From: a virus
DNA length: 35,026 nucleotides
Virus record (IMG/VR): IMGVR_UViG_3300010885_047510
Coordinates: 1-35,026 of that record
Strand: one strand, 5' to 3'
Part shown: positions 18,704 to 23,662 of the stretch, piece by piece
Position numbering within the stretch: position 1 is the first letter of the stretch
Layout: the number at the start of each line of letters is the position of its first letter
Translations under genes and position numbers: made by a program
The notes under the pieces: model-generated
The model's input: the letters and a program-made list of their open reading frames with translations, nothing else
What the model was told of the DNA's origin: nothing
Databases searched by the model: none

Positions 18704-18981
18704 AAATCCGCACTCCTTCTCATTGTTAATTCAGCATATCCGATTATATCTTCCATATGCATATCTTTCTCTGGTCCACCACATACAACCCTCGCCATCT
18801 TTACAGCGATCATCTCAAGCGATTCGCGCATTTCATTTGACAGCAGACACCAATTACTGCTTGTGCGCATTACCATTTTAATCGCTTGCGATATTCCAGA
18901 AACATCTGAGTACCGCCCATGCGTTTTACCGCGCTCCCGCAATAAACCATTAGTATCAATCACCCCTTTATCCCCCTGCAT
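18700..18981 (-). CDS. DUF6378-like phage protein
   Basis: This 93-residue protein has the pattern LLRERGKTHGRYSDVSGISQ, then a helix with MRESLEMIAVKMARVVCGGP and IIGYAEL near the C-terminus. These match the small conserved phage domain known as DUF6378 (RG.THGD.., EAL.MIA.K..RI..G, ..W.DIAGYA.L), whose function is unknown. The ATG at 18981 follows AAGGGAAAT; a GTG at 18963 that overlaps the terminase stop (GTGA) is an alternative start. It overlaps the terminase gene by 22 bp. Confidence 0.7.
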   Translation of the reverse strand: MQGDKGVIDTNGLLRERGKTHGRYSDVSGISQAIKMVMRTSSNWCLLSNEMRESLEMIAVKMARVVCGGPEKDMHMEDIIGYAELTMRRSADL

Positions 18982-21368
18982 ATTTCCCTTGACAACGGAT
19001 TATATTCGACCTGATGCATGTTACGCGCGGCATTATCTTCCTCGATTGGATAGCCGTTTATCATGCCAGCAACCTTGCGCACACGAGAGGCCGAGCGGAG
19101 TTGCATAATTGCATAGCGAGTACATGCCATCAAGTCATCGTACTCCTTCTGCACCTTTCCCTCTTTCCTGTGATACAACCTAAATTCTTCAAACCACTCA
19201 CTCAAATGCCGAAACACCCTAAACCTACCAGTCTCCATGCGCATCAGCATCTCTGTCAATCCCGCCTCTACCGAATTGCTCCCGTTTTCAAAAGTCGCAT
19301 GCTCCGGTAGCATATTAAGCCCTAAATCTCTATATGACACACTCAATTGCTCACCCGAATTTTTATCATGAATATTCCCATCATGCGGCCATGCCCACGG
19401 AAGTTTCCCCCATGGTTTAAGCGCAGCGGCATGAATAATAGGCGTAGCCTCACTCCGTTTATAACAATTCGTTACATAAATAATATCATCCTGCGGATTA
19501 TACAATAATTTTACTGCCGCAGTTGGATGCTCCCACCCGAAATCTATTCCCGCAATTTCTAACCAAAAAAAAGGCACCGATGCCATATCAAACGGATCAC
19601 ATGCAATGGCCTCCTCCGCAACAGGAAATATCCGCCCACTACCCAAAATAGGTTGCCCCATAATACGCGCATTACGCTCGTGCGCCGGATAACTATCAAT
19701 AATCTTTTGCCTCTCCGCCGGAGCAATATGCAGCGCATCCTCAATAGTCATATTAATATCGCAGCGGTCCGGCGATTTATCATGCAGAAATTTTCTAACC
19801 ACTTCGCTCATACCCTTGAGGGGCGTAAACGTCATATACAAAAACCCCTTCGTCGCGTTTGTCCGTGTCAATGCCTCCGTATAAATATCCAATGGCGGCT
19901 CTTCATCAAGCCACACAATATCAACCGTATCCGCCTGGAATTTCTCCCGCCCCTGCTCATAATATTTTAAGCGAATGCGCGTCTTGCCACCTGACGCATG
20001 CTTCACATAAATAGTATCAACCAAATCCGCTACACCCCTACTCGGTGTCGTCTCTACAATATCATCCAGCGGTATAAATCCTGTCCCTGGATTTCCCGAA
20101 TCCCCTATCAATAATTTCTGAATCGAATCCCGAACAACCTCGCCCGTTACACCTGCACACCAAATCACAGGCGCTTTCTTCAGTCGCACACCTTCCCACC
20201 ATGAGGGGTACTTGCCCGTAGCGTGAATTGCCGTGTTAGCGGCAGCGCACATGGTTTTTCCGCAATTATGATGTATAACCCCTTGTAATATATAATTATT
20301 ATTGACAGGAACATGGCAGTCAATAATTGGTTGCCAGCCTATAGGAATGTATGCTATAATCTTCTCGCCAAAAACTAAAACAGGAGATTCTAATGGGTAA
20401 AACATCGAAATGCGCCGAGCATCATAATTTGATTCTGCAAATGAACGAGCAAGGCTATGAGCGTCAAGAAATTGCACAGCACCTTGGCCTACCAAAGACG
20501 ACAATACAGAACTATCTCCAGTCTCGGAATATCCCCCCCGCTGCCGGAGGCGGGAAAAAACTTCTGCGTCAACTAGACACGATTCGCCAGATGATCGAAG
20601 TTCATGGGAAAAGTCAGCAAGAAGTTGCAGATTATTTTCATGTCCATGTTTCAGTGGTAGAAAGACTGATCGCATCCGTGGGCATGAAAACATCTCGTAC
20701 AGGGCCTCGCGCTGCAAGCGGCCACAAACAAAGGTGGAATGGAGGTCGGATTCTTGAAAAAAATTGGTATATTGGCGTATTTGTTCCTCTGCATCCTCAT
20801 GCGAAAACATCAGGCTATGTTTCGGAGCACCGGCTTGTGATGGAAGTGCATCTTGGTCGCTATCTTCTACCAACAGAGGTAGTTGACCATCGAGATAGCC
20901 ATACGCAACACAACTGGCCTGATAATCTTCGAGTTTATGACTCAAATGCAGACCATTTGAGCGAGACATTAACTGGTCGATACGGCAATAGCCGTGTTCG
21001 GTTAATATTTGGTGACTGGTCGAGCAGTCGAACCAGCGACCCGATTCCAGAACTACACGAAACGCTGGCTCAATCCCCCGAAGGATTCCGCGAGAAATTT
21101 GAGCGGTACATCGAGATTCACCGTCCCACGAAGGAACATTCGCGCCTTCCTCGAAAAAAATATCTCCGCACAGGCGCTCACCAGAATCCGTTTCCATAAT
21201 AGACCACGGCGAAAGACATTGATTGCCAGCACGCAACAGAGTTTCACGAAATTTACCAGCATTCCTGTGAAACATTTGCTGCTTCCTGTAAGGCCGATAC
21301 AACTCCAGCTTTCGCTTTTCCGCTTCAAGCCGCAAGCGCGCATAATCTTCAGCTGTAAAATCAGTCAT
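18960..21368 (-). CDS. terL: Large terminase subunit (ATPase-nuclease motor) interrupted by an intein
   Basis: The precursor is 802 residues; removal of the intein leaves about 484. TerL pumps DNA into the head through the portal and cuts the concatemer. The N-terminal half carries the ATPase: Walker A is rebuilt only after splicing as AGNQ|CGKT, and a Walker B-like IVWLDEEP is present. The C-terminal half has the nuclease's first acidic motif, IAGIDFGWEHPTAAVKLLY, and a DDLMACTRYAI helix. The ATG at 21368 overlaps the upstream zinc-ribbon gene; a GTG at 21383 is possible. The inserted 318 residues split the P-loop, so the ATPase must be inactive until the intein is removed. Confidence 0.9.
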   Translation of the reverse strand: MTDFTAEDYARLRLEAEKRKLELYRPYRKQQMFHRNAGKFRETLLRAGNQCLSPWSIMETDSGERLCGDIFFEEGANVPSWDGESRCTAQISRGILRGIEPAFRVVLESGRWFDCSTSHQILTEHGYCRIDQLMSRSNGLHLSHKLEDYQASCVAYGYLDGQLPLLVEDSDQDALPSQAGAPKHSLMFSHEDAEEQIRQYTNFFQESDLHSTFVCGRLQREALYEMFSCPRMRSVFLPLKHGHENNLQLLADFSHELRSSGESCLVDAEVFSRLRQRGGYSETGDSSVLSSLVGQGAVQFLDAHSLARSFAESNYDARRISMFYPLESPVLVFGEKIIAYIPIGWQPIIDCHVPVNNNYILQGVIHHNCGKTMCAAANTAIHATGKYPSWWEGVRLKKAPVIWCAGVTGEVVRDSIQKLLIGDSGNPGTGFIPLDDIVETTPSRGVADLVDTIYVKHASGGKTRIRLKYYEQGREKFQADTVDIVWLDEEPPLDIYTEALTRTNATKGFLYMTFTPLKGMSEVVRKFLHDKSPDRCDINMTIEDALHIAPAERQKIIDSYPAHERNARIMGQPILGSGRIFPVAEEAIACDPFDMASVPFFWLEIAGIDFGWEHPTAAVKLLYNPQDDIIYVTNCYKRSEATPIIHAAALKPWGKLPWAWPHDGNIHDKNSGEQLSVSYRDLGLNMLPEHATFENGSNSVEAGLTEMLMRMETGRFRVFRHLSEWFEEFRLYHRKEGKVQKEYDDLMACTRYAIMQLRSASRVRKVAGMINGYPIEEDNAARNMHQVEYNPLSREICRGIKG
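20331..20360 (+). promoter_or_regulatory. Promoter of the antisense intein nuclease, inside the intein
   Basis: TTGCCA (20331-20336) and a perfect TATAAT (20355-20360) with an extended -10 TG (TGCTATAAT) are 18 bp apart. It lies within intein codons, starting one base after the block F coding segment, and points rightward, antisense to terL. An SD follows at 20382-20386. Confidence 0.7.
20382..20386 (+). promoter_or_regulatory. Shine-Dalgarno site of the antisense nuclease
   Basis: AGGAG lies six bases before the ATG at 20393. With the promoter just upstream it makes a complete expression signal on the strand opposite terL, so the antisense reading frame does not look accidental. Confidence 0.75.
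20393..21199 (+). CDS. HNH homing endonuclease encoded antisense inside the terL intein
   Basis: This 268-residue protein lies wholly inside the intein coding region on the other strand. It has two HTH-like segments (about 15-45, QEIAQHLGLPKTTIQNYL; about 64-98, SQQEVADYFHVHVSVVERLI) and a full HNH nuclease motif at about 141-188: GYVSEHRLVMEVHLGRYL, EVVDHRDSHTQHNWPDNLRV and YDSNADH. That motif is far too specific to be chance. The last 80 residues lie antisense to intein splicing blocks A/B. It has its own promoter and SD, and its stop is 19 bp from the intein edge. The likely target is the intein-free terL P-loop, which would spread the intein. Homing is inferred. Confidence 0.92.
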   Translation: MGKTSKCAEHHNLILQMNEQGYERQEIAQHLGLPKTTIQNYLQSRNIPPAAGGGKKLLRQLDTIRQMIEVHGKSQQEVADYFHVHVSVVERLIASVGMKTSRTGPRAASGHKQRWNGGRILEKNWYIGVFVPLHPHAKTSGYVSEHRLVMEVHLGRYLLPTEVVDHRDSHTQHNWPDNLRVYDSNADHLSETLTGRYGNSRVRLIFGDWSSSRTSDPIPELHETLAQSPEGFREKFERYIEIHRPTKEHSRLPRKKYLRTGAHQNPFP

Positions 21369-21546
21369 ATTTACATTTACCACACGATTTTGTATTTCCC
21401 GATGTCAAATTACTAATTCTTACATTCACCACACTACCACACTCACACGCGCACGCCCACACATTTTCCCGCCCAGACTTGCCAATTAAGCGAAGCGCGA
21501 TTAATTTGCCGAAGTGCATTCCAGTTAGGTTTTTTCCGTAGGCCAT
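21361..21546 (-). CDS. Small zinc-ribbon DNA-binding-type protein
   Basis: This 61-residue protein has the pattern NLTGMHFGKLIALRLIGKSG, then WACACECGSVVNV and GNTKSCGKC. This layout (LTG..FG+L.., C.C.CG, L.SG.TKSCGC) is the zinc-binding N-terminal module of many phage AP2/HNH homing-type nucleases. Here it stands alone, directly before terL, and its last 8 bp overlap the terL start. It could be a remnant of a homing nuclease or an independent DNA-binding factor. No clear SD precedes its ATG. Confidence 0.65.
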   Translation of the reverse strand: MAYGKNLTGMHFGKLIALRLIGKSGRENVWACACECGSVVNVRISNLTSGNTKSCGKCKYD

Positions 21547-23229: not shown

Positions 23230-23469
23230 ATGCAAATAGATGATAATATACCTCTACCCGATACAATCAGGCGCAAAGGCCATAGTCGATATGGCTTTGA
23301 GCAAATAGGCATCGGGCAGAGCGTTTTTTACAAAGCCGACAATCTGGCAGTTGTAAATATACGCTCGGCGCTTACCGAGTGGAAGAAGAAAAACGGACGA
23401 AATTTTGTAACAAGGGAAAGGATTGAAAATGGCATACCTGGAGTCAGGGTCTGGCGATCTGATAAATAG
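23230..23469 (+). CDS. Small early protein with a VRVWR C-terminal motif (DUF7303-like)
   Basis: This 79-residue protein has the pattern of a small phage family I know as DUF7303: GFEQIGIGQSVFYKADN, a basic helix (SALTEWKKKNGRNFVTRERI) and the ending PGVRVWRSDK. Function is unknown; the fold may bind nucleic acid. The next gene encodes a diverged copy and overlaps it by 41 bp. The family name is from memory. Confidence 0.6.
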   Translation: MQIDDNIPLPDTIRRKGHSRYGFEQIGIGQSVFYKADNLAVVNIRSALTEWKKKNGRNFVTRERIENGIPGVRVWRSDK

Positions 23470-23662
23470 CCCTTATTTTAATTGGCCTGAGTTGCATGTA
23501 GATAAAATAGCTGTTGGTGAAAGCAAATTTTATTCTTATGATATTTTCCCCGATCACAAGCGCGTTAAAAATGTGATTAGAGAATGGGGAAAATATAATA
23601 ATGCAAAATTCCTGCTAAAAAGCGAGGGCAGGATTGGCTTGAGAGTATGGAGATTAAAATAA
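23429..23662 (+). CDS. Second DUF7303-like small protein, diverged copy of the preceding gene
   Basis: This 77-residue protein repeats the layout of its neighbour: a VGESKFYSYDIF segment, a basic helix (VKNVIREWGKYNNAKFLLKS) and the ending LRVWRLK. The ATG at 23429 follows an AAAGGA SD six bases upstream, which sets the start and gives a 41 bp overlap with the upstream gene. A tandem duplication followed by divergence is the simplest explanation. Confidence 0.6.
   Translation: MAYLESGSGDLINSPYFNWPELHVDKIAVGESKFYSYDIFPDHKRVKNVIREWGKYNNAKFLLKSEGRIGLRVWRLK

Follow-up and report, generated by a model that had tools for sequence, protein, structure and literature searches.

Mobile inteins conventionally carry their nuclease as an in-frame domain, as in the full-length VMA, RecA, and DnaB inteins with LAGLIDADG or HNH nucleases. 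The locus described here raises the question of whether an intein can be mobile when its nuclease is encoded by a gene on the opposite strand of its own coding sequence. The window analysed is a 35,026-base IMG/VR virus record (IMGVR_UViG_3300010885_047510, positions 1 to 35,026).

An intein in the Walker A motif of terL

The terminase gene terL of the window is interrupted by an insertion with the following features (slashes in sequences mark junctions).

18960-21383 (-): terL precursor ORF, 807 aa, with Pfam Terminase_6N and Terminase_6C
21219-21383 (-): terL N-extein
20265-21218 (-): intein, 318 codons, in the terL Walker A motif, supported by alignment, profile, and model; the empty allele in L127 is GNQ/MGKT
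18960-20264 (-): terL C-extein (Terminase_6N and Terminase_6C)
21216-21218 (-): Cys1, the N-terminal splice nucleophile, invariant in the alignment
21012-21014 (-): block B His (His69, STSH), invariant in the alignment
20319-20321 (-): block F Asp (Asp300), nearly invariant but replaced by Cys in the PHS3 group
20265-20270 (-): block G His317-Asn318, with the +1 Cys at 20262-20264
within 20265-21218 (-): intein splicing domain, residues 1-90 and 270-318

The sequence-only reading had proposed a 318-residue intein-like insertion in the terL P-loop, running from Cys1 to HHN followed by Cys, and these boundaries proved exact to the base (21218 down to 20265). The insertion is in frame and splits Walker A, with the junctions LLRAGNQ/CLSPWS...GVIHHN/CGKTMC. 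At the exact junction it is absent from the intein-free homologues L127, L117, L366, and L367, of which L127 has the terL closest to that of the window (82% identity, uninterrupted). A head-to-tail connector gene comes after terL.

The residues expected of an intein are conserved. In an alignment of 69 inteins, C1, H69, and N318 are invariant and D300 and H317 nearly so. In the larger set, Cys1 was present in all 166 testable inteins, and the +1 residue was Ser, Thr, or Cys in 178 of 179. The NCBIfam model intein_Nterm matched 31 of the 69 members. Comparison of the intein profile with the PDB identified the DnaB mini-intein 4o1r (E 6e-24) in two blocks, 2-91 and 251-291, leaving the HNH-covered middle unmatched. 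In the AlphaFold model of the intein, pLDDT was about 95 for residues 1-90 and 270-318, and much of 98-257 fell below 50, with one central helical stretch at about 80; a Foldseek search with this model ranked DnaB mini-inteins first (E 3e-6). By the tested features (Cys1, block-B His, D/H/N, +1 Cys, Hint fold, and empty junctions) the insertion meets the definition of a class 1 intein; protein splicing itself is inferred.

No sense-strand nuclease was detected in the window intein, since the family search matched only intein-containing proteins. An in-frame nuclease in the sense middle was ruled out by the lack of a family match together with the low-confidence model, and the earlier statement that the intein carries no sense-strand nuclease thus held.

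Two further observations concern neighbouring ORFs. A 61-aa ORF (21361-21546, minus strand) overlaps the terL start, contains CxC...CGxC motifs, and resembles the module at the N terminus of other HNH/AP2 proteins from phages; searches of Pfam and NCBIfam gave no match for it. Two adjoining 79-aa ORFs on the plus strand (23230-23469 and 23423-23662) have the look of tandem paralogues, both ending in '...G.RVWR'.

An HNH gene on the opposite strand

The strand opposite to the intein carries the following features.

20393-21199 (+): putative HNH homing endonuclease gene, 268 aa, wholly inside the intein coding sequence
20408-20680 (+): two helix-turn-helix DNA-binding domains (HNH residues 6-44 and 61-96)
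20825-20962 (+): HNH nuclease core, with E145-H146-R147, H166, N174, N178, and H188 conserved
20963-21199 (+): HNH C-terminal tail over intein blocks A-B, constrained in both frames according to the substitution profile and alignment
20382-20386 (+): Shine-Dalgarno AGGAG upstream of the HNH ATG (20393)
20331-20360 (+): promoter-like TTGCCA-18-TATAAT, 11/12, TG-extended, upstream of the HNH gene in the intein C-terminal coding sequence; consensus match only

The complete 268-residue HNH protein that had been read on this strand was recovered with exact coordinates, and its helix-turn-helix domains and HNH_3 were matched. The stop codon of the gene lies 19 bases inside the N-terminal edge of the intein and the ATG 128 bases inside the other edge. 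HNH codon position 1 faces intein position 1, HNH position 2 faces position 3, and HNH position 3 faces position 2. The HNH_3 domain was found in 66 of 68 homologues, and H146, H166, N174, N178, and H188 are invariant in all 68. The protein model had a pLDDT of 87, and its best structural match was the homing endonuclease I-HmuI (E 0.2, probability 0.94). A Shine-Dalgarno sequence was present at 39 of 57 HNH starts, compared with 0-13 of 57 at offsets of at least 15 nt, and about a third of the starts have no obvious one. By chance alone, the region should contain about 1.9 sites like the promoter-like element. The ORF opposite the intein is a real gene, the expression and cleavage activity of its product being inferred.

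Recurrence in phages and prophages

Related loci were collected by an IMG/VR scan with the HNH and from GTDB, and each match was classified by profiles of both proteins. The search for relatives suggested in the sequence-only reading recovered the antisense-in-intein arrangement in 179 of 184 distinct HNH genes, all in the same phase and inside a longer open ORF matching the intein profile. The five exceptions were L012, L222, and L231, which are free-standing, and L048 and L296, which are secondary minus-strand matches. The HNH queries came from intein-embedded members, so the ratio of 179:3 overstates the rarity of free-standing relatives. The possibility that L222 (3459-3977, plus strand) and L231 (1779-2411, plus strand) are split cases was rejected, both being free-standing HNH genes. 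That the HNH merely lies near terL was likewise rejected, given its position inside the intein frame in 179 cases.

The embedded HNH genes form 110 clusters at 70% identity. Nearly all readable junctions are in Walker A (137 of the form x/[CST]GK[ST] and 17 after GK), and the C-exteins match the Terminase_6 and Terminase_3 families. L217 has the element in a helicase ORF of the Strawberry-notch type (2,537 aa), at a Walker A-like motif (sense residues 1097-1396). Querying GTDB with the HNH alignment found Acinetobacter and Enterobacter prophages; the window HNH alone gave no match there, and a plasmid search gave only distant HNH matches. The HNH was intact in most relatives, with broken copies inside an open intein in L013 (two in-frame stops) and L113 (one stop), so the outcome named earlier as a refutation, an HNH broken in all relatives, does not apply.

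In the HNH tree, the embedded HNHs cluster together and the two free-standing ones, L222 and L231, are nested within them. This topology suggests that the embedded HNHs may have had one origin, with at least one putative escape from an intein, but the root of the tree is arbitrary.

A second terL intein was also observed, overlapped on its own strand by a zinc-finger HNH gene in a shifted frame, with both frames open. Of 44 related IMG/VR loci, 36 had this arrangement, and the frame was the same every time.

L013, 1771-2445 (-): same-strand HNH class
L259, 1289-1897 (-): same-strand HNH class
L088, 2671-3204 (-): same-strand HNH class
L386-L431: same-strand HNH class

In L013 (IMGVR_UViG_3300032462_000086) the second intein sits at a terL nuclease-domain site (EYDDI/C...VHN/C), and the stops in the antisense HNH of the first fall within a fully open intein. 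This terL is thus doubly invaded, by an intein with a decaying antisense HNH and by a second one with a same-strand HNH.

Constraint on the two reading frames

Synonymous codon shuffling of the window HNH gave a mean of 6.0 antisense stops in the intein phase, and none of 200 shuffles was open. By the same procedure, the median expectation was about 4.8 antisense stops for each HNH gene; in 96 genes (17,421 codons) the in-phase stops numbered 0 and those in the other two phases 949 and 573. Over 35,619 codons, stops in the three antisense phases numbered 27, 1,728, and 1,138, and the exceptions accounted for all of the 27. Dipeptides of the type Phe-[IMTNK] force an antisense stop in the intein phase. 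Their count was 0/268 for the embedded HNHs, against 6/21 for the free-standing HNHs and 470/1571 for the terL C-exteins. For short GC-rich members taken alone (e.g. L005), an open antisense frame is not improbable (P ~0.2). On the basis of the shuffles, phase statistics, and controls, a chance ORF was rejected.

Substitution rates in 15 pairs of relatives differed along the intein. In the C-extein, intein-frame position 3 changed at 0.459, compared with 0.080-0.121 for the other positions, and position 3 was the fastest in the exteins, block A, and blocks F-G. In the core, the fastest was intein position 2, which is HNH position 3 (0.24-0.31 vs 0.07-0.16). The HNH tail over intein residues 8-88 was slow in both frames. 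Mean identity in the core was 0.18 for the sense product and 0.37 for the HNH, and the less conserved sense product is therefore best seen as a tolerated linker. Sense-frame constraint beyond openness was not demonstrated in the HNH-covered core, and HNH position-3 rates were not below the single-coded third positions of the intein. Along most of the HNH gene, what the sense frame encodes resembles a linker with little conservation and mostly low model confidence, for which the main requirement is openness. Genuine constraint on two proteins at once is found chiefly in the stretch shared by the HNH C-terminal tail and intein blocks A-B. The proposal that both proteins are overprinted with both frames open thus stands and recurs in about 180 distinct loci, with the refinement that two-protein constraint is found mainly at the HNH tail.

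Mobility and empty alleles

The element is present sporadically among close relatives. Enterobacter cloacae DSM 26481 (L115) bears the intein, and two prophage terL alleles with 97-98% protein identity do not. The 295 genomes of this family yielded 15 closely related terL genes, of which only the query contained the intein. Similarly, Escherichia coli MEI003 (L116) bears the intein and E. coli ET729 has an empty site. As the sequence-only reading had proposed to check, the HNH is absent from intein-free alleles (ET729, L127, and L366/L367). In the pair L105/L106, the inteins are 89-95% identical at the nucleotide level and the flanking exteins 61-79%; in L076/L087 and L115/L116 the intein identity is likewise far above that of the exteins. 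Because nearly identical inteins reside in much more divergent terL genes and close intein-free alleles exist, the element moves. It moves horizontally into empty alleles; homing as the mechanism is inferred, as we have no crossing data.

Cultured phages and gene annotation

Cultured carriers of the element are seven Pectobacterium phages (Ymer genus), Dickeya phage Setonix, and Pseudoalteromonas phage PHS3. One terL was detected in each of the four cultured-phage genomes searched, and it bore the intein. Since the only detected terL of these viable phages bears the intein, splicing is very likely, although this remains an inference without biochemistry. These phages make the arrangement testable.

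The double coding also accounts for systematic misannotation of terL. When pipelines pick the antisense HNH, terL is misannotated as a pseudogene or shortened: in E. coli MEI003 (L116, 3101-5388), PGAP labels terL a pseudogene and annotates the HNH, and the record of phage PHS3 (L011, 1541-3667) shows a shortened terL beside the HNH. Terminases with an antisense HNH are probably widely missed by annotation pipelines.

Proposed mechanism and alternatives

We consider it highly probable that the window contains a mobile intein with the gene for its homing endonuclease on the antisense strand and that this arrangement is widespread; splicing, HNH expression, cleavage, and homing are inferred. In the mechanism that we propose, terL mRNA would be translated through the whole intein, and the Hint domain (residues 1-90 and 270-318) would excise itself post-translationally, restoring the terminase Walker A, as judged from its catalytic residues and fold. 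An opposite-strand transcript with its own Shine-Dalgarno would yield a free 268-aa HTH-HTH-HNH protein, for which coding selection is the evidence. In co-infected cells or at prophages, this nuclease may cleave or nick the Walker A site of terL alleles without the intein. Repair would then copy in the intein together with the antisense gene and, usually, a splicing-competent +1 residue; we infer these events from alleles with and without the intein and from its horizontal transfer. The central ~170 residues, when translated in the sense frame, presumably form a mostly tolerated linker that needs only to remain open. Because free-standing members of the HNH family exist, the nuclease gene is probably the older code. 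The intein frame would have been overprinted on it, probably once, and the element would afterwards have reached further terL families and at least one helicase.

Other explanations were weighed against this scheme. The HNH could serve the host phage, for example in packaging or the exclusion of rival phages, with the intein as a safe berth. Some HNH proteins do act with terminases (PMC11855218) and terL is the usual host gene, and the abundance of close terL alleles without the element may also be counted in favour of this idea. However, homing is consistent with the sporadic presence, with horizontal movement of the intein as one piece, and with sites that are empty precisely at the junction, and one copy resides in the Strawberry-notch helicase of L217, making a host-serving role without homing unlikely. 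It is more doubtful still that the intein alone matters and that the HNH ORF is a fossil or arose by chance. Some copies are indeed broken (L013 and L113), but the third-position bias in the HNH frame in 15-17 pairs, the conserved catalytic residues, the Shine-Dalgarno enrichment, and ~180 intact copies speak against this possibility.

Introns can bear nuclease genes on either strand, and the insertion might accordingly be removed as RNA (a group I/II intron with an antisense ORF), its resemblance to an intein being incidental. No intron RNA structure was found in the window by Rfam at the gathering threshold, and the intron reading was rejected on this ground. The sense frame is moreover open in all 179 cases, Cys1, block-B His, Asn, and +1 C/S/T are conserved, and a Hint fold is predicted, leaving this reading scarcely credible. 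Nor does it seem at all probable that the antisense transcript, rather than a protein, matters as a regulator of terL: any antisense promoter within terL could alter its expression, but the HTH and HNH are conserved at the protein level and the codon-position bias lies in the HNH frame.

Under the preferred reading, a mobile intein with an antisense nuclease gene, nuclease output is decoupled from host-protein output, which may explain intein life in a late essential gene. We regard it as quite likely that antisense-HNH inteins are a large undescribed mobile class, comprising at least 179 distinct phage/prophage genes in several terminase families and one helicase, in a single phase, and that, with the second, same-strand class, overprinting is a common mode of carrying the nuclease in phage inteins. 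The overlap is a long, heavily replicated natural antisense protein overlap, and well over a hundred distinct homologues are available for testing overlapping-gene theory.

Comparison with known systems

The element shares with HEN-containing inteins a Hint splicing domain, empty sites, a mobility-driving nuclease, and insertion in a conserved ATP-binding motif. In contrast to those inteins, where the nuclease is in frame, it has a separate antisense gene and an in-frame linker middle. The conventional feature of an in-frame nuclease is thus not met by the window HNH, which breaks the textbook rule for mobile inteins. Dassa et al. reportedly described 'fractured genes' in 2009, split inteins in which a nuclease gene separates the two halves. 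They are similar in that a separate nuclease gene occupies the place where the in-frame nuclease domain would sit, but the host gene is split there, whereas here a single uninterrupted ORF runs through the nuclease gene. Free-standing phage HNHs (for example Jabbawokkie gp30, Squillium gp42, and MW202481) have a homologous HNH core but are intergenic, with 2-17 stops in the antisense phase.

The paper on the Ymer genus has no mention of inteins or HNH (PMC11445585). In the open-access literature we found no antisense nuclease gene within an intein, subscription papers and preprints being largely outside our reach. The arrangement is apparently undescribed, although priority is not certain. The earlier impression that no such intein had been described is in line with the absence of any catalogue entry in open-access papers, the ShiLan domain being the only near case.

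The ShiLan domain/Pacc40 is a hidden out-of-frame HNH insertion in phage methylases (Arsenault, Gosselin, Gogarten 2025, PMC11855218); it lacks intein features and is thought to remain in the protein (PMC11855218). Like the present element, it is a mobile insertion in which an HNH gene and an open host frame share the same bases, and the HNH cores of ShiLan/Pacc40 are distantly related to the antisense HNH (H88 and H174, 41-44% over ~80 aa). The window element does not meet the ShiLan-type criteria of a same-strand out-of-frame HNH and no splicing domain: the ShiLan HNH lies on the same strand without an intein, whereas that of the window is antisense in an intein.
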